The notes under the pieces are model-generated. The model was not told the DNA's origin and made no database searches. It was given only the letters and a program-made list of their open reading frames with translations. From an uncultured Caulobacterales bacterium (GTDB taxonomy: Bacteria > Pseudomonadota > Alphaproteobacteria > Caulobacterales > Maricaulaceae): a DNA stretch of 34,107 nucleotides. Made by a program: the position numbers and the translations under genes. Positions 1,822 through 10,837 of the stretch are shown piece by piece (within the stretch, counting starts at the first letter, position 1; every line of letters starts with the position of its first letter). The stretch lies in contig CALLBD010000014.1 in the NCBI GenBank assembly GCA_938001915.1, positions 1 through 34,107 on the forward strand, written 5' to 3'.

Positions 1822-2784
1822 TTGCTCTCTTGGCCTCAGATATCTCTGACACGCATAATTTGGCTTTGCTTCGCCGGTTTTATTTTAATGGGCTGCGCAA
1901 GTTTTCGCGGCGCGCCCACCGCCACTATTGAACAGACGCCCGGCGCCTTTAGCTTGCCCTATCGGCTTTCCTCTGCGGGGCGTATTTTGCTCGACGTCTC
2001 CATCGACGGAGAGGCTGCGCGGCCTTTAGCGCTCGATACCGGCGCGACGGTTTCCGTGCTTTATGGGAGCTATGCCGAGGCCATAGGGTTGGAAGTCAGC
2101 GGTAGAACCCTGTTTGTGAGAGGCTTGGTCGGGAAGGGCGAGCGCCCCGTCATCGAAAATGTCGAGATGCAATTAGGCGCGCGCGCTTTTGCGATGGACC
2201 AAATGCTCATGCTCGACACGCCCTTTATTAAAGACGAAGCCGTCGGCCTTTTGGGAGCGGATGTACTGGGCGGCTATGTAGCTCTATTTAATCGGGATAC
2301 ATTGACCGCCAGTTTTATTCCGCGAGACAATGTCACGCGCGAGAGTTTTAAGGGGTGGAATGAAATTCCGCTTCAAATTTTTGACGACGCCCAGACCAGC
2401 TCCCGTCTATATTTCGCGCATATTAATTACCGAAATCAGGATGTCCCAGTCTTGGTTGATACGGGGTCGAATTTGAATTTTATTAATTGGAAGCTCGCGA
2501 CACTGGATAGGGATGTGCGCCGATTGGAACGTAAACTCATTCGGCAAGGCACGGTGCAGGGGGCTTTAGACTCGACCTCTGCGTCGACGCAAACGAGCTT
2601 TAAAGATCTCACATTGGGACGTCAGCATTGGGATGAAATTACGGTCGTCATCATGGGGCTAGACGCCTTGGAGACGGTAGCGCCCGTGGACGCGCCCATG
2701 ATGGTGGCGGGCGCATCTGTCTTCACGCCGCATACCATTGCCTTCGATTTAACGGGGCTGGCCCTGTATATACGGCGGTCATGA
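1822..2784 (+). CDS. Two-lobed retropepsin-like aspartyl protease lipoprotein
   Basis: About 320 residues from the TTG at 1822. I prefer this start to the in-frame ATG 1765 because it gives a normal lipoprotein signal: short basic region, hydrophobic IIWLCFAGFI, then LMGC with the lipidated Cys near residue 25. ATG 1765 would add 19 residues and overlap the VOC gene by 50 nt. Two aspartyl-protease signatures are present: LALDTGAT (Asp about 72) and VLVDTGSN (Asp about 213), each followed by a hydrophobic region such as LLGADVLGG. One chain therefore carries both halves of a pepsin-like active site, or two independent retropepsin lobes. Likely periplasmic and anchored to a membrane. It overlaps the next gene by ATGA. 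Confidence 0.75.
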   Translation: MLSWPQISLTRIIWLCFAGFILMGCASFRGAPTATIEQTPGAFSLPYRLSSAGRILLDVSIDGEAARPLALDTGATVSVLYGSYAEAIGLEVSGRTLFVRGLVGKGERPVIENVEMQLGARAFAMDQMLMLDTPFIKDEAVGLLGADVLGGYVALFNRDTLTASFIPRDNVTRESFKGWNEIPLQIFDDAQTSSRLYFAHINYRNQDVPVLVDTGSNLNFINWKLATLDRDVRRLERKLIRQGTVQGALDSTSASTQTSFKDLTLGRQHWDEITVVIMGLDALETVAPVDAPMMVAGASVFTPHTIAFDLTGLALYIRRS

Positions 2785-3299
2785 TGGAATATCTGTTTCT
2801 TCTTATTCCGTTGGCTATTCTTTTTCTGGCATACCGCGCGCGCGGGAGCGGCGGCTTTTCCGCCCCCGAGGTTTCGCCGATTTCCAAGTCGGATTTAGGC
2901 GCTTTTGAAGCCGCGCCGTCGCTTTGGGTCAATAGTTCCGAGGCGGCCCTTTTTGCCATCCTGCGCCGATATATGCCGACGGGTTTTCATGTGCATGGCA
3001 AGACCCGGCTCGAGGATATCATCCGTGTCAGGCGCGGATTGCCAGAGCAGCTGCGCTGGGCGGCGCGCGGCCGGGTGAAATCTCGCCATGTCGATTTTCT
3101 TATCACCAACCGAGCGGGAAAGCCCGTCTTGGCGATAGAGCTGGATGGGGCGTCGCATAATAGGCGCAAACCGTCCGAAAGCGATAAGGTCAAGACAGCA
3201 TTATTTAAGGCCGCTGACATTCCCCTGCACAGAATCATTGTGGGTGAAGATTTCGACAGTAGAGCGCAGAAAATTGGCGATATGTTAAAGCGTTATTAA
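2781..3299 (+). CDS. Membrane-anchored DUF2726-type nuclease-like protein
   Basis: 172 residues. The N-terminus (MMEYLFLLIPLAILFLAYRA) is a single membrane anchor, followed by a soluble domain. The core matches DUF2726, a PD-(D/E)XK-like fold: HVDFLI around residue 108 gives the Asp, then a strand with the E-x-D motif (LAIELDGASHN), then a helix with KVKTALFKAADIPLHRI. Catalytic function is not established for this family. ATG 2781 overlaps the TGA of the protease gene as ATGA, so translation is coupled; a second Met follows directly. The body would face the cytoplasm if the anchor is N-out. Confidence 0.75.
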   Translation: MMEYLFLLIPLAILFLAYRARGSGGFSAPEVSPISKSDLGAFEAAPSLWVNSSEAALFAILRRYMPTGFHVHGKTRLEDIIRVRRGLPEQLRWAARGRVKSRHVDFLITNRAGKPVLAIELDGASHNRRKPSESDKVKTALFKAADIPLHRIIVGEDFDSRAQKIGDMLKRY

Positions 3300-5334: not shown

Positions 5335-5770
5335 TCTGTTTATCTCTGGGTACGCCAGCCGTTTCGGTGAAGCGGACCTCTCTGGCGATATCGTGCAGCG
5401 CGGCGCATTTAGCGCTTCTCTGCTCTCCCGCGCCGACCCATTCCCCATGTTATTTGGTCACCAGACCGATACGCCCATCGGCGTTTGGGACCGCATCTTT
5501 GAAGATGAGATCGGTCTGTTTGTGGCGGGACGTATTTTGGACACAGCCCCGTCTCCGCGCCGCTTAGTGGAAAGCGGAGCGGTCAGCGGACTGTCCATTG
5601 GCTACCGCACGCGGCGGTCAAATTCGCGCCCCTCTGGCGGGCGCATCCTAACCGACATTGATCTTTGGGAGGTGTCCGTCGTCGCCTTTCCCATGCTGCG
5701 CTCTGCGCAAATTACCCACATCGGCGACAGTTCTGAAATCAACGCAGACCATCAAAGGAGATATGCGTGA
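5327..5770 (+). CDS. HK97-family prohead protease (g4)
   Basis: 147 residues. This serine protease cuts the N-terminal scaffold from capsid subunits during prohead maturation. The expected catalytic elements are in place: FGH with His45, SGLSIGY with Ser90, and the WEVSVVAFP strand with Glu115. The start MSDLFISGYASRFGEADLSGD is typical of the family (SGYA then D..GD). It overlaps g3.5 by 8 nt and the capsid gene by ATGA-type overlap (GTGA). Intact and probably active. Confidence 0.92.
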   Translation: MSDLFISGYASRFGEADLSGDIVQRGAFSASLLSRADPFPMLFGHQTDTPIGVWDRIFEDEIGLFVAGRILDTAPSPRRLVESGAVSGLSIGYRTRRSNSRPSGGRILTDIDLWEVSVVAFPMLRSAQITHIGDSSEINADHQRRYA

Positions 5771-6933
5771 AACCCCAATTAGAAACCCCCAAACTCGAAA
5801 CAAAAGCTTCGGGCGATTTGCAACAGGCCAAGGCCGATTTCGCGGCCATCTTCGCCGCCTTTCGCGAAGCCAATGATAATCGCTTGGCGGCGCTGGAGGC
5901 GAAGTCATCGGTTGATCCGCTGCTGACGGAGAAAGTCGACCGCTTAAATGCGGCGTTGGAAACGCAAACGCGGCGCGTGGAGAACCTCACGCTGGCGCAA
6001 GCAACACCTAACTTCCCAAGCGAAGCGAAATCCGCCGACACCCAAGCCTGGGCGAGCTTTATTCGCACAGGTGAAACCTTAGGGCTGGAAGGTAAGTCCG
6101 TCGCCTCTACCGAAGGCGACGGCAGCCTCATCGCGCCCGTGGAGACAGAAACGCGTATCGATAGCGTCTTGGCGGAAACCTCGCCCATGCGCCGCCTCGC
6201 GACTATTCGCACCATCGGCGCAAGCCTTTTCCGTAAACCCGTCAGTACCTCTGGCGCGGCGGCAGGCTGGGTTGGGGAAACCGACCCGCGTGTCGAAACC
6301 GAAACGCCAAATCTCGCCCTGCTCGAATTTCCAGCGGGCGAGCTCTACGCCATGCCGGCTGCGACGCAGGCGCTGTTGGATGATAGCGTCGCCGATGTGG
6401 ATGCGTGGCTGGCTGAAGAAGTCCGCGATGTGTTTTCGGCCCAAGAAACGGCAGCTTTTGTAAATGGTGACGGCGTGAATAAGCCGCGCGGTTTCCTCAC
6501 AGAGCCGGGCTTAGGGGTGATTGAAACGGACGCGCTCGACACGGATGGTTTGATTGATCTCATCTACGGCCCGCACTCGCGCTACCGCGCCAATGGCAGT
6601 TTCGTCATGAACCGCCGCACGATTAATGCTGTGCGGAAATTCAAAGACGCGGATGGGAATTATATCTGGCAACCGTCCCTCGCGGCGGGCGGGCCCTCGA
6701 CCTTGCTCGGCTATCCGCTGGTGGAAATGGAAGATATGCCAGATATTGGCGGCGGCGCAGCCAGCGTAGCTTTCGGCGATTTCCGCCGAGGCTATCTCAT
6801 CGCAGACCGCCAAGGCGTACGCGTATTAAGAGACCCATACTCCGCCAAGCCATACGTGTTGTTCTACACAACAAAACGCGTAGGCGGCGGGGTGCAGGAT
6901 AAGGATGCGATTAAATTATTGAAGGCGGGGTAG
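5767..6933 (+). CDS. HK97-fold major capsid protein (g5)
   Basis: 388 residues from GTG 5767, with AGGAG at 5756-5760 as a strong ribosome site. The first ~90 residues are charged and helical (an AALEAKSSVDPLLTEKVDRL-type heptad pattern), as in the delta domain that the prohead protease removes. The HK97 core follows: TRIDSVLAETSPMRRLATI, AAGWVGETDPRVE, the E-loop region, and FVNGDGVNKPRGFLT. It ends VGGGVQDKDAIKLLKAG, typical of phage and GTA capsids. The insertion that interrupts the operon begins 7 nt after its stop. Confidence 0.93.
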   Translation: MKPQLETPKLETKASGDLQQAKADFAAIFAAFREANDNRLAALEAKSSVDPLLTEKVDRLNAALETQTRRVENLTLAQATPNFPSEAKSADTQAWASFIRTGETLGLEGKSVASTEGDGSLIAPVETETRIDSVLAETSPMRRLATIRTIGASLFRKPVSTSGAAAGWVGETDPRVETETPNLALLEFPAGELYAMPAATQALLDDSVADVDAWLAEEVRDVFSAQETAAFVNGDGVNKPRGFLTEPGLGVIETDALDTDGLIDLIYGPHSRYRANGSFVMNRRTINAVRKFKDADGNYIWQPSLAAGGPSTLLGYPLVEMEDMPDIGGGAASVAFGDFRRGYLIADRQGVRVLRDPYSAKPYVLFYTTKRVGGGVQDKDAIKLLKAG

Positions 6934-6940
6934 TAACCCT

Positions 6941-7094
6941 TCCTCCCCCCAGTAGGGGGAGGTGCTGAAGCGTTTGCAAAACGCGAAGGCGGAGGGGGTA
7001 AGTGTGCAGATTTAGTCCAGCACTCCTACCCCCTCTGTTTTCACTGACGTTCAAACATCTCCCCCCACTGGGGGGAGAAAGGTCTTTCTATTTT
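6941..7094 (+). repeat. 154-bp folded repeat, upstream copy
   Basis: Begins TCCTCCCCCC and ends GGTCTTTCTATTTT. It contains four potential hairpins: C-run/G-run arms at 6942-6962 (one mismatch), GCGTTT/AAACGC arms within 6971-6985, GAGGGGGT pairing with ACCCCCTC across the variable middle, and a 9-bp C-run/G-run hairpin near 7058-7078. It begins 7 nt after the capsid stop codon and ends 34 nt before the DUF559 start. Confidence 0.85.
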
Positions 7095-7128
7095 ATGGAC
7101 AGGTTCAAGGTGTTTGTTATTGTGAAGT

Positions 7129-7512
7129 ATGAAGCCTCGGCATTTCGATATCGACAGAAAGGCACTTAAACGCGCACGAAGTCTACGCAAAAATATGACG
7201 GAAGAAGAGCGATTGCTCTGGTCCGACTTAAAGACGTTTCGGAAATTCGGTCTGGCCTTTCGTAAACAGGCTCCCGTCGGTCCGTTCATTGTAGATTTCC
7301 TGTGCCGCAAAGCCATGCTTGTCGTTGAAGTCGATGGTGACCATCACGGCGAGGATGAGCAATGGATCAATGACCGCGAACGCGATGCATGGTTGGCCGC
7401 ACATGGCTATAAAATTCTGCGGTTTTGGAATGCGGATGTCAGGCGATCTTTGGACGATGTGACGGAAGCTATTTTTACAGAAGCAAAACGGTTGACAGAT
7501 TTACGCGACTAA
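7129..7512 (+). CDS. DUF559 (Vsr-like) endonuclease-fold protein
   Basis: 127 residues. N-terminal RARSLRKNMTEEERLLW is the usual DUF559 opening. The core has the Vsr-like nuclease pattern: PFIVDFLC with Asp56, then VVEVDGDHH with Glu67, Asp69 and His72-73, then AHGYKILRFWNADV and a closing helix. Members are predicted DNA endonucleases of uncertain role, often solitary and small. The gene fills the space between two direct repeats and sits between capsid and connector genes of the GTA operon, in the same orientation as the operon. No clear ribosome site precedes ATG 7129. Probably a passenger rather than a GTA component. Confidence 0.88.
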   Translation: MKPRHFDIDRKALKRARSLRKNMTEEERLLWSDLKTFRKFGLAFRKQAPVGPFIVDFLCRKAMLVVEVDGDHHGEDEQWINDRERDAWLAAHGYKILRFWNADVRRSLDDVTEAIFTEAKRLTDLRD

Positions 7513-7513
7513 C

Positions 7514-7667
7514 TCCTCCCCCCAGTGGGGGGAGGTGCCGAAGCGTTTGTAAAACGCGAAGGCGGAGGGGGTATGTGTAAAGGCTTTAACTCGGCACACC
7601 GACCCCCTCTGTTGTCTCTGCGGTCCAACATCTCCCCCGACTGGGGGGAGAAAGGTCTTTCTATTTT
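7514..7667 (+). repeat. 154-bp folded repeat, downstream copy
   Basis: Same ends and orientation as the copy at 6941-7094. The first hairpin is perfect here: CCTCCCCCC and GGGGGGAGG with an AGT loop (7515-7535). GCGTTT/AAACGC follows, then GAGGGGGT with its distant complement, then a C-run/G-run hairpin near 7630-7651. It starts 1 nt after the DUF559 stop, so it would also be the 3' end of that mRNA. Confidence 0.85.
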
Positions 7668-7708: not shown

Positions 7709-8122
7709 CTACCCGTCTGTTAGCACTGTATAATCACTTCTATCATTTTCATATTTGTATTGGAGTTTAAGTTTTGATCCATTTTGAAAAGATATAATTG
7801 CGATAGCTACGCCGTCTTTAGAAATTTCTTTGAAGCCCTGAATTGGGCTTCCGAAAATCTTGTGACCATCAAAGAGTTTAGTATCTCGCCACTGCATTTT
7901 GTCATCACCCGTTATAGTTCCTACAATCGGGTAATTAATCTTATTGGCGTCTACTCTCCATTGGCAGGCCTCATCATCATAAAAAACCCTCCAACAATTC
8001 GAATGGTTATCTTTTAGGAAAATGGGGCAGCAAGCACATGAGAGATTTCCACATAGCCAAAACTGACGTGCGGACGCTTCGATAATCACATGCCCAATTA
8101 AATTTTCTTCAGTTACATTCAT
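7709..8122 (-). CDS. Hypothetical protein inserted in the GTA operon
   Basis: 137 residues from ATG 8122; an in-frame TTG at 8131 would add three. I do not recognise it. The N-terminus reads MNVTEENLIGHVIIEASARQ, followed by LCGNLSCACCPIF with four cysteines in about ten residues, then WRVFYDDE..QWRVD and KLFDGHKIFGSPI. The C-terminal half alternates polar and hydrophobic residues as in beta-rich domains. It lies on the opposite strand to every GTA gene, has lower GC, and ends 42 nt from the downstream folded repeat. Probably a passenger acquired with or after the DUF559 cassette. Codon pattern and reading suggest a real gene. Confidence 0.6.
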   Translation of the reverse strand: MNVTEENLIGHVIIEASARQFWLCGNLSCACCPIFLKDNHSNCWRVFYDDEACQWRVDANKINYPIVGTITGDDKMQWRDTKLFDGHKIFGSPIQGFKEISKDGVAIAIISFQNGSKLKLQYKYENDRSDYTVLTDG

Positions 8123-8203
8123 GACCAACAAATAAGGGTTGTTCTTTGAAAAGTCGAATTTTTTGAAACCAAAAAACGTCCGGTTAAAACTTAAACCAAA
8201 CCC

Positions 8204-8230
8204 AGCCTGCTCTCCGAGCAGGCTTTTTTT
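8204..8230 (+). terminator. Strong intrinsic terminator between g5 and g6
   Basis: AGCCTGCTC at 8204-8212 pairs perfectly with GAGCAGGCT at 8216-8224 around a TCC loop, followed directly by an unbroken T-run to 8230. This is a textbook rho-independent terminator reading in the GTA direction. It ends 22 nt before the ATG of g6, between the capsid half and the connector/tail half of the operon. Confidence 0.9.
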
Positions 8231-8252
8231 ATGCCTTCAAATAGGAGTCCCT

Positions 8253-8759
8253 ATGACATTGACTGACCTTTCCCCCCCGCCTGCTGCCGCTGTGTCACTA
8301 GACGCGGCGAAGGTGTTTTTGCGGGTGGACCATGAGGATGAGGACGCGTTGATTGCGGACCTTATCGATGTGGCCGCGCGCCAGATTGAGGCCCGGTGCG
8401 GCGTATCCTTGATTACGCGCCGCCAACGCCTCACCAAAGCCGCGAGTGCGGCGGGCGTGTATCTGACGCGTTATCCTATTCTCTCAATTGACGCCGTGCG
8501 TGACGGCGAGAACGCGCTGCCCATAGACGCAGATTTACGCGCGCGGCCAGTGCTCGTGCGAACTCAATCGCGCGGCACGCTCACCGTGGATTTCACCGCT
8601 GGCTACGGCGAGACCCCCGCCGATATTCCGACGCCGCTGCGCCAAGGCGTTATGCTGCTGCTGGCGCATCTCTATGAATTTCGCGTGGGTAATCCGCCGC
8701 CTGGATTTCCGATGATGGTGGATGCCCTCATTCAGCCCTATCGGGGGATGCGGCTATGA
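8253..8759 (+). CDS. GTA head-tail connector protein (g6)
   Basis: 168 residues from ATG 8253, chosen because AGGAG lies 6-7 nt upstream; the longer in-frame reading runs back through the terminator. The protein matches phage connector (gp6-like) adaptors that bind below the portal: AAKVFLRVDHEDEDALIADLIDVAARQIEARCGVSL (short part: LRVDHEDED) is the usual N-terminal helix pair, followed by beta strands and GTLTVDFTAGYG, then a C-terminal helix LRQGVMLLLAHLYE. It is the first gene after the insertion and begins a new series of 4-nt overlaps, so it needs read-through of the terminator or its own promoter. Confidence 0.87.
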   Translation: MTLTDLSPPPAAAVSLDAAKVFLRVDHEDEDALIADLIDVAARQIEARCGVSLITRRQRLTKAASAAGVYLTRYPILSIDAVRDGENALPIDADLRARPVLVRTQSRGTLTVDFTAGYGETPADIPTPLRQGVMLLLAHLYEFRVGNPPPGFPMMVDALIQPYRGMRL

Positions 8760-10416: not shown

Positions 10417-10813
10417 TGACGCCGCGCAGGCGTTAGAAAGTTTCGCCGCAGGTCCCGGCGCAGAAGCGGCCAATGCTCTGGCGGATGTGTTTGAACAGGC
10501 GGGCGAGCGTATTGCAGGTTCGCTGGAACGCGCGGCAACGTCGGGGGAGTTATCATTTAACTCACTCGCGGAATCTGTCTTAAATGATCTCGCGCGTATC
10601 GCTATTTCAGAATTAATTACCGCGCCCTTACAAGGCGCGGTTTCCTCTTTGACGAGTTCGATTGCGGGCGGCGTGTCTGCGAAATCTTCGCCCGTTACCG
10701 TGAACGTAAATGCCCCGCAAGCCTTTGGGAAAACCAGCGGCCCGCAGGCCAGTTCCGCGCAAATGGCGGCGCAAATCGCGCAGGCTGTGACGCGGGCGCA
10801 AGGTAGAAATTAG
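10403..10813 (+). CDS. Short GTA tape measure protein (g11)
   Basis: 136 residues from ATG 10403, chosen for the AGGAGG site 6-7 nt upstream. The order of genes and the central segment (GELSFNSLAESVLNDLARIAISELITAPL, short part: ESVLNDLARIAISELI) match RcGTA-type tape measures. The N-terminus is Ala-rich helix; the tail is low complexity (Ala/Gln/Ser). It is shorter than I recall for RcGTA g11 (about 220 aa), so the tail tube would be short, as tube length follows tape length. Intact frame. Confidence 0.75.
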   Translation: MNTIDDAAQALESFAAGPGAEAANALADVFEQAGERIAGSLERAATSGELSFNSLAESVLNDLARIAISELITAPLQGAVSSLTSSIAGGVSAKSSPVTVNVNAPQAFGKTSGPQASSAQMAAQIAQAVTRAQGRN

Positions 10814-10837
10814 TCCGCCAAAATTAGGATAAGATAT

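Follow-up and report, generated by a model that had tools for sequence, protein, structure and literature searches.

The window, by which we mean the whole 34,107-nt stretch of contig CALLBD010000014.1 (GenBank GCA_938001915.1) from an uncultured Caulobacterales bacterium of the Maricaulaceae, carries a gene transfer agent (GTA) operon with profile matches for capsid, portal, protease, gp6-like, HCP and gp17 genes and further GTA-specific matches to GTA_TIM, the GTA ‘megatron’ model and an Rcc01695-type distal tail protein. Head-to-tail gene order and the GTA-specific tail genes confirm an operon of RcGTA type, and with it the GTA setting given by the initial annotation. Between the capsid stop codon and a terminator-like hairpin lies a cassette composed of a small DUF559 nuclease gene flanked by two 154-bp direct repeats (Table 1). 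Just upstream of the GTA head genes is a DUF2726 gene (2781-3299) whose nuclease-like match is weak, and PADLOC returned one local match, to DpdF.

Table 1 Features of the capsid–gp6 region (positions in the window).
Feature	Position	Strand	Evidence
GTA major capsid gene; stop 7 nt before first repeat	5767..6933	+	profile match
Upstream 154-bp repeat, complete left-half/right-half pair, MITE/REPIN-like	6941..7094	+	repeat comparison, DNA search, folding
Left half, copy 1: hairpin 6942-6962, second hairpin, G tail CGGAGGGGGT at 6990-6999 mirroring purine arm GGGGGAGG	6942..6999	+	sequence
Right half, copy 1, inverted: tail ACCCCCTCT 7028-7036, hairpin 7058-7078	7028..7078	-	sequence, inverted repeat
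DUF559 (PF04480), predicted PD-(D/E)XK Vsr-like nuclease, 127 aa	7129..7512	+	profile match, fold, residues
Downstream 154-bp repeat	7514..7667	+	repeat comparison, DNA search, folding
Left half, copy 2: hairpin 7515-7535, tail 7563-7572	7515..7572	+	sequence, scanner
Right half, copy 2: tail 7602-7610, hairpin 7631-7651	7602..7651	-	sequence
Terminator-like hairpin and T run before gp6; similar ones in relatives by eye	8204..8231	+	sequence
gp6-like head-tail connector, next operon gene	8253..8759	+	profile match

The two repeats, in the same orientation, share 87% identity (E 3.4e-47, DNA search); the first 65 nt and last 47 nt are each 94% identical between copies, the 44-nt middle is 75% identical, and beyond the right half of copy 2 the remaining nucleotides, up to 7667, do not differ between the copies. 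Imperfectly palindromic, each repeat joins a left half to a right half in inverted orientation and is a complete half-half pair by itself; in each half a G tail comes after the hairpin and mirrors its purine arm, a correspondence found on reading in all four window halves (two per copy). Both repeats fold much more stably than shuffled sequence (z -7.4 upstream and -6.8 downstream; 0/200 shuffles as good), and the downstream copy begins 1 nt after the DUF559 stop codon (stop at 7512, repeat from 7514). The initial annotation was accurate as to the equal length, common orientation and near-identical ends of the repeats, their capacity to fold and their distance from the gene.

The window's own genome (G000; 2.6 Mb, 89.65% complete) contains two DUF559 genes in all, the second of which, on contig C62 between glyQ and glyS, has upstream of it a repeat that is diverged yet complete (seen by eye; absent from the DNA search list). 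A lone repeat copy (C59:419-557) precedes a gene with CN_hydrolase and NAD_synthase domains. As only the C59 copy stands alone, three of the four complete repeat copies seen in G000 adjoin DUF559 genes, and the genome count suggested at the outset gave repeats beyond the window's own site. In two species of the genus (L015 and L038, the neighbours of the latter identified by eye) a DUF559 gene with an upstream repeat lies at glyQ-glyS; this insertion is probably old and vertically kept.

The window protein matches PF04480 (DUF559) with E 4.8e-33, in agreement with the family first named for it, and has all of the conserved residues E27, D56, E67, D69 and H73; core residues are conserved across 12 aligned proteins. 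Foldseek searches with the structure model (pLDDT 88.8) matched 3hrl (E 5e-7), the homing endonuclease I-Bth0305I (1e-4; of the EDxHD/Vsr-fold family) and, more weakly, Vsr (7e-3). Family match, modelled fold and the acidic/His core together identify the gene product as a putative DUF559 nuclease of the PD-(D/E)XK type. At several loci (L108, L109, L081, L084 and others), the right half-repeat was read as often supplying the C-terminal tail of the DUF559 protein (PHPNPLPQERE-like).

DUF559 genes are under purifying selection, with dN/dS of 0.06-0.51 over 14 pairs; in 10 pairs the value does not exceed 0.111. Copies inside one genome are diverged (72-80% nt identity in the listed pairs, 87% in one pair), with no recent within-genome duplication among the copies fetched and compared; four entries in 100% pairs (L193, L203, L207 and L212) were repeat fetches of the same loci and were left out of the mirror test and association counts described below. 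The divergence of the copies implies that there have been no recent bursts of the gene itself and fits either a RAYT-like helper or vertical descent. Selection and divergence together give a pattern that resembles that of RAYTs, which are described in the accessible text of one study as nearer to housekeeping genes than to transposases (PMC8266576).

From portal to position 10813 the capsid–gp6 junction is the sole gap between genes, the next being one of 24 nt (10814-10837). For comparison, 30 capsid loci, including that of the window, were taken from among 46 genomes with a match; 28 reach gp6 and 2 end before it. The relatives also have a gap here, of 60-200 nt in 21 of the 27 with gp6 in reach, and the cassette therefore enlarged a gap and broke no overlap; the initial annotation's view of this as the only non-overlapping junction in the head genes stands as far as 10813. 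A match search over 1.5 kb after the capsid stop found DUF559 at this junction in 0/27 relatives. A lone paired repeat (left half, inverted right half) lies just after the capsid stop in L054 (same genus) and L076 (same order), and a lone half in L073. The site is empty in most relatives and has been used more than once; the comparison of relatives proposed by the initial annotation found 27/27 without the cassette, not the same cassette at the same place in all. The window's junction has about 580 extra nt besides the cassette, including an orphan 140-aa frame (7709-8131, minus strand) that matches no Pfam or NCBIfam family and is without a relative in the other 29 capsid loci. At the same junction L050 (G013) carries a different insert of ~0.9 kb, in which neither halves nor a DUF559 match were found.

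A common plan was evident among the loci compared, namely DUF559 loci of relatives, 27 loci of named genomes from several phyla and those from 150 sampled Pseudomonadota genomes. It begins with a hairpin whose 5′ arm is pyrimidine (CCTTCTCCC and variants); next, sometimes after a second hairpin, comes a G tail, in the forms GGATGAGGG, GGGTGAGGG and GGAGGGGG, which mirror the purine arms GGGAGAAGG, GGGAGAGGG and GGGGGAGG, respectively. Over 502 hairpins from 115/123 loci, tails matched the mirror of their own stem better than that of other stems (0.824 vs 0.769; z 18.7); control patterns also scored (z 6.2, 4.2 and 2.4), and the signal is therefore partly one of shared composition. Tail and purine arm covary as mirrors. 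The description of the unit as a gene between two 154-bp repeats is true of the window; the recurrent unit elsewhere is half, gene and inverted half.

This plan is that of the TM/PIT intrastrand triplex motif, in which a hairpin is followed by a third-strand tail mirroring the purine arm; the repeat is not private to the window's genome and is built on the plan of this widespread motif. As described in the accessible text of Holder et al. 2015 (PMC4666352), the motif is known from E. coli, where it is intergenic, occurs in inverted pairs and varies between strains; the triplex of the E. coli form (TMECO) formed in vitro and was not supported in vivo, no mobility genes are reported around the motif, and the main text makes no mention of DUF559 or ycjD. 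The exact TMECO consensus is absent, on reading, from the window halves, which have a second hairpin and stems CCTCCCCC/TCTCCCCC.

Linkage of half-repeats to DUF559 genes was measured with a hairpin scanner tuned on the first two locus sets (58 loci), the Pseudomonadota set (28 loci) being kept out of tuning; it replaced a simple regex that had found the motif near 15/31 DUF559 loci. In the tuning sets 102 halves lie in the 33.6 kb within 300 nt of the gene and 9 in the 127.9 kb farther out; corresponding numbers for the untuned set are 47 in 16.8 kb vs 3 in 62.7 kb. A half is present within 300 nt at 26/31, 27/27, 24/28 and 33/37 loci of the four sets (110/123 in total), compared with 5/111 same-size control windows around capsid genes and 7/153 far windows. 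The scanner found no half at 13/123 loci; it misses L015 and L038, both of which have the repeat by eye, and half counts are therefore low. A test independent of the scanner gave between-flank inverted repeats above the 99.9% shuffle level at 18/31 DUF559 loci vs 1/133 control ORFs; 9.5% of mismatched flank pairs from different DUF559 loci also exceeded the shuffle level, as expected if the repeats resemble each other between genomes.

The tail of the nearest half within 150 nt points toward the gene in 70/76 cases upstream and 77/91 downstream (147/167 together), and the gene therefore mostly lies inside the element; L033 and L171 are clear half-gene-half examples. The G tail often stops 1-10 nt before the DUF559 start codon, and the right half often overlaps the 3′ end of the gene. 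The repeat is also present at AT-rich DUF559 loci (L081, L083, L098). The association is general and strong across several phyla, and the analogy drawn from the window, to REP/RAYT systems but with a Vsr-like nuclease as the only gene, finds support far outside it.

A covariance model of the half (R1) was run with stricter filters on 60 genomes, G000 included, with at most 105 candidates scored per genome, and found the half in 49/60. Repeat and DUF559 counts, the latter without the 10 weakest or split rows, were correlated across the 60 genomes (rho 0.67, p 6e-9, a statistic that ignores kinship), with a median of 12 repeats in the 37 genomes with DUF559 and 2 in the 23 without; within the window's own genus alone (18 genomes) the correlation was not significant (rho 0.32, p 0.19). 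Among the best 150 listed repeats, 19 have a DUF559 gene no more than 400 nt away vs 0.14 expected under uniform placement, and 15/19 of these point their tail at the gene; by our estimate a preference for intergenic positions would raise the expectation several-fold, not to 19. Most listed lone repeats are far from DUF559, some of them multi-copy, and repeats are also found in genomes without detected DUF559 (20 in G017, 13 in G006, 50 in G026). Among the matches listed, short pairs matched over a constant 120-123 bp number three in G006, three in G011 and one in G017. The copies aligned within G011 and within G003 end sharply, with no target-site duplication visible by eye in five aligned G011 copies or the G003 family.

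In E. coli MG1655 the DUF559 gene is ycjD. At 167 nt from its stop codon, on the downstream side, is an exact TM pattern, with the tail directed away from the gene, and a decayed hairpin was seen by eye over the ycjD 3′ end. A 1-kb query over the ycjD locus was at least 80% covered in 3333/5426 complete E. coli genomes, and one TM 36-mer had a near match in 5090/5426. Strains differ in their TM pairs at hrpB-mrcB, alx-sstT and lldD-trmL: these are present in some and reduced or missing in others. No target duplication was seen by eye at E. coli empty sites, where flanks are partly diverged; such duplications, which the initial annotation had suggested seeking at the cassette's junction in relatives, appeared neither here nor in the G011 and G003 families. 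TM copy number shows no clear dependence on ycjD: among 40 rows listed, the mean number of TM places was 4.1 in 25 with a ycjD part and 3.1 in 14 with only a fabI part, a comparison that counts the locus itself and is confounded by lineage. The three ycjD-less genomes fetched (L139, L140 and L143, with no ycjD beside fabI) gave no clean empty site at the ycjD locus, a TetR/RND efflux island filling it in each.

DUF559 was detected at E <= 0.001 in 78/148 Bacteroidota genomes, 77 of them over the cut-off. Of 29 new loci, 27 were used (L261 and L264, near contig ends, were left out), and a half is present near DUF559 at 18/27 vs 2/31 far windows; the scanner found none at the remaining 9/27. Several Bacteroidota DUF559 domains lie in frame inside other proteins: leucyl-tRNA synthetase (LeuRS; L255, L257, L279), B12 methionine synthase (MetH; L268, L273) and type I restriction subunits (HsdR in L258 and L260, HsdM in L265). 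A domain scan of host proteins, covering 8 of the 12 loci read, found host domains before DUF559 in 8/8 interrupted proteins and after it in 7/8, the frame in L265 continuing past DUF559 without a further Pfam domain; no intein (Hint) domain was found in any of the 8. Translated half-repeats were read as PSP..GE-like peptides. LeuRS has three sites that differ between genomes. The nuclease occupies site 1 in both L255 and L257, and L279 has nothing there. Site 2 shows all three states, with no insert in L255, a lone half in L257 and the nuclease in L279. At site 3, L255 and L279 each carry a lone half and L257 is empty. At site 2 of L279 both tails point outward, against the usual plan.

DUF559 genes and hairpin/G-tail repeats probably make up one family of mobile elements, with forms that carry the gene and forms that lack it. 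The observations in its favour are the architecture, the linkage and its orientation, short forms present in several copies, sites seen both filled and empty, insertions in frame, purifying selection on the gene and mirror covariation. The full form would consist of a half-repeat, the nuclease gene and an inverted half-repeat; short forms (pairs of ~120-155 bp, such as each 154-bp window repeat) would be ends without the gene, presumably derived from full forms and needing the nuclease in trans. Single-stranded ends would fold into a hairpin with the G tail laid back as third strand, to be recognised and nicked by the nuclease, whose predicted fold is common to Vsr and I-Bth0305I, and copying would proceed by replication- or repair-coupled transfer without target duplication. 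Preferred insertion points would be the junctions between genes, such as the one directly behind the GTA capsid stop, joined in Bacteroidota by in-frame positions within proteins; in the window the nuclease gene would be held between two complete short elements. The initial annotation's ‘different kind of mobile or self-maintaining unit’ is supported in architecture and linkage, and movement by the nuclease is the part that we infer. Several observations count against the mobile-family model: the tail beside ycjD and both tails at L279 site 2 face away from the gene, DUF559 copies show no recent bursts within genomes, some genomes have repeats and no detected DUF559, the count correlation is not significant in the window's own genus, E. 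coli genomes with and without the ycjD part differ by about one motif place, and the scanner found no half at 13/123 loci and at 9/27 in Bacteroidota.

The main rival, which we consider unlikely, holds that DUF559 is a homing-type invader, a free-standing nuclease that targets pre-existing repeats and is copied in by break repair on their two arms, the repeats themselves spreading by other means. It would account for a gene seated inside two halves, for I-Bth0305I being among the closest solved folds after 3hrl, for in-frame insertions in conserved proteins, one site of which has a lone half in another genome, and for diverse copies long kept at the same junction, both at glyQ-glyS (L015, L038) and in Bradyrhizobium (L088, L090, L091 and L096, with the same neighbours by eye). 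However, a mere parasite of repeats would not be expected to show repeat number rising with DUF559 number over 60 genomes, the within-genome DUF559 copies compared are too diverged for recent homing, and the interrupted proteins are free of Hint domains (8/8 scanned).

Less likely again is a resident nuclease for DNA repair or structure trimming, with the adjoining repeats as immobile regulatory or terminator structures. Purifying selection would suit such a role, as would the DNA-damage context in which, according to the accessible text of PMC12907096, Caulobacter crescentus VsrA acts, a protein that carries a DUF559 domain; a G tail ending 1-10 nt before the start codon could act as a ribosome site. 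Against it stand the lone, in part multi-copy repeats listed far from DUF559, repeat pairs that are polymorphic in E. coli and in-frame insertion into unrelated proteins.

Ordinary REPINs moved by a RAYT (Y1) transposase, with DUF559 incidental, are very improbable: the inverted-doublet form is indeed that of REPINs as described in PMC3116915 (accessible text), but the repeats are linked to DUF559, and a RAYT as mover was rejected, as G000 (89.65% complete) has no Y1_Tnp (PF01797) match and such a match reaches E<=1e-3 in 8/60 genomes, in 6 of them over the cut-off, vs 49/60 with the repeat. That simple, G/C-rich hairpins lie near small genes by chance, as a compositional artefact, is hardly credible given how seldom control windows and control ORFs were positive, the sharp boundaries of multi-copy families and the repeats at AT-rich L081, L083 and L098.

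The mobile family that we favour is best read as a counterpart of REPINs and RAYTs, pairing elements that bear the gene with elements that lack it, in which the enzyme is an unrelated nuclease. Its REPIN-like traits are inverted palindrome doublets in multiple copies and a gene in the helper position, DUF559 and not a RAYT, flanked by the same palindromes. As far as the accessible text of PMC3116915 and PMC8266576 goes, REP/REPIN-RAYT (TnpA-REP) systems have the same inverted palindrome doublets and a helper that is flanked by them, kept and diverged and not bursting; here, however, the putative helper is a PD-(D/E)XK DUF559 nuclease rather than a Y1/HUH enzyme, and the ends are mirror-tail motifs. 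The TM/PIT motif (PMC4666352, accessible text) shares hairpin, G tail mirroring the purine arm, inverted pairing, intergenic position and strain variability, whereas in copies from the window's order a second hairpin often separates the stem from the tail.

Homing endonucleases of the I-Bth0305I type are similar in predicted fold (Foldseek E 1e-4) and, in Bacteroidota, in insertion inside conserved genes; unlike these, DUF559 is flanked by hairpin ends, is intergenic in the window and most loci read, and had no intein in the proteins scanned. E. coli Vsr and Caulobacter VsrA belong to the same nuclease superfamily, VsrA with a DUF559 domain, but a mismatch-repair role is proposed for them (PMC12907096), in accessible text that does not take up these repeats. 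IS-derived MITEs and Caulobacter CIR elements (named in the accessible text of PMC10969869 and compared by description) are likewise short intergenic inverted-repeat elements; a target duplication, as in classical IS and MITEs, was not found for these repeats. In Legionella, transposase/DUF559 segments are reported as recombination hotspots (PMC12308824, accessible text). Our search found no literature joining DUF559 with ‘inverted repeat’, or DUF559 or ycjD with the TM/PIT motif; novelty is provisional, since most subscription papers and bioRxiv preprints lay outside that search.

A wider reading is possible and held more tentatively than the mobile family itself: that a pan-bacterial mobile superfamily has as its ends the TM/PIT repeats recorded in >260 bacterial genomes, and that its enzyme, DUF559, reads the three-stranded fold, copies gene-less forms, spreads them with no target duplication and is able to place whole nuclease domains in frame within essential proteins, no intein being involved. 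TM/PIT motifs are a common but unexplained class of bacterial repeat with no known mover, and DUF559, linked to them in several phyla, is a directly testable candidate. If true, this would account for small insertions in operons, here that of a phage-like GTA, and for extra in-frame segments in tRNA synthetases and other enzymes; it would also represent a second, independent origin of a REPIN/RAYT-like system. The window and the distant loci point to an undescribed mobile-element family and to a possible mover of a common repeat.
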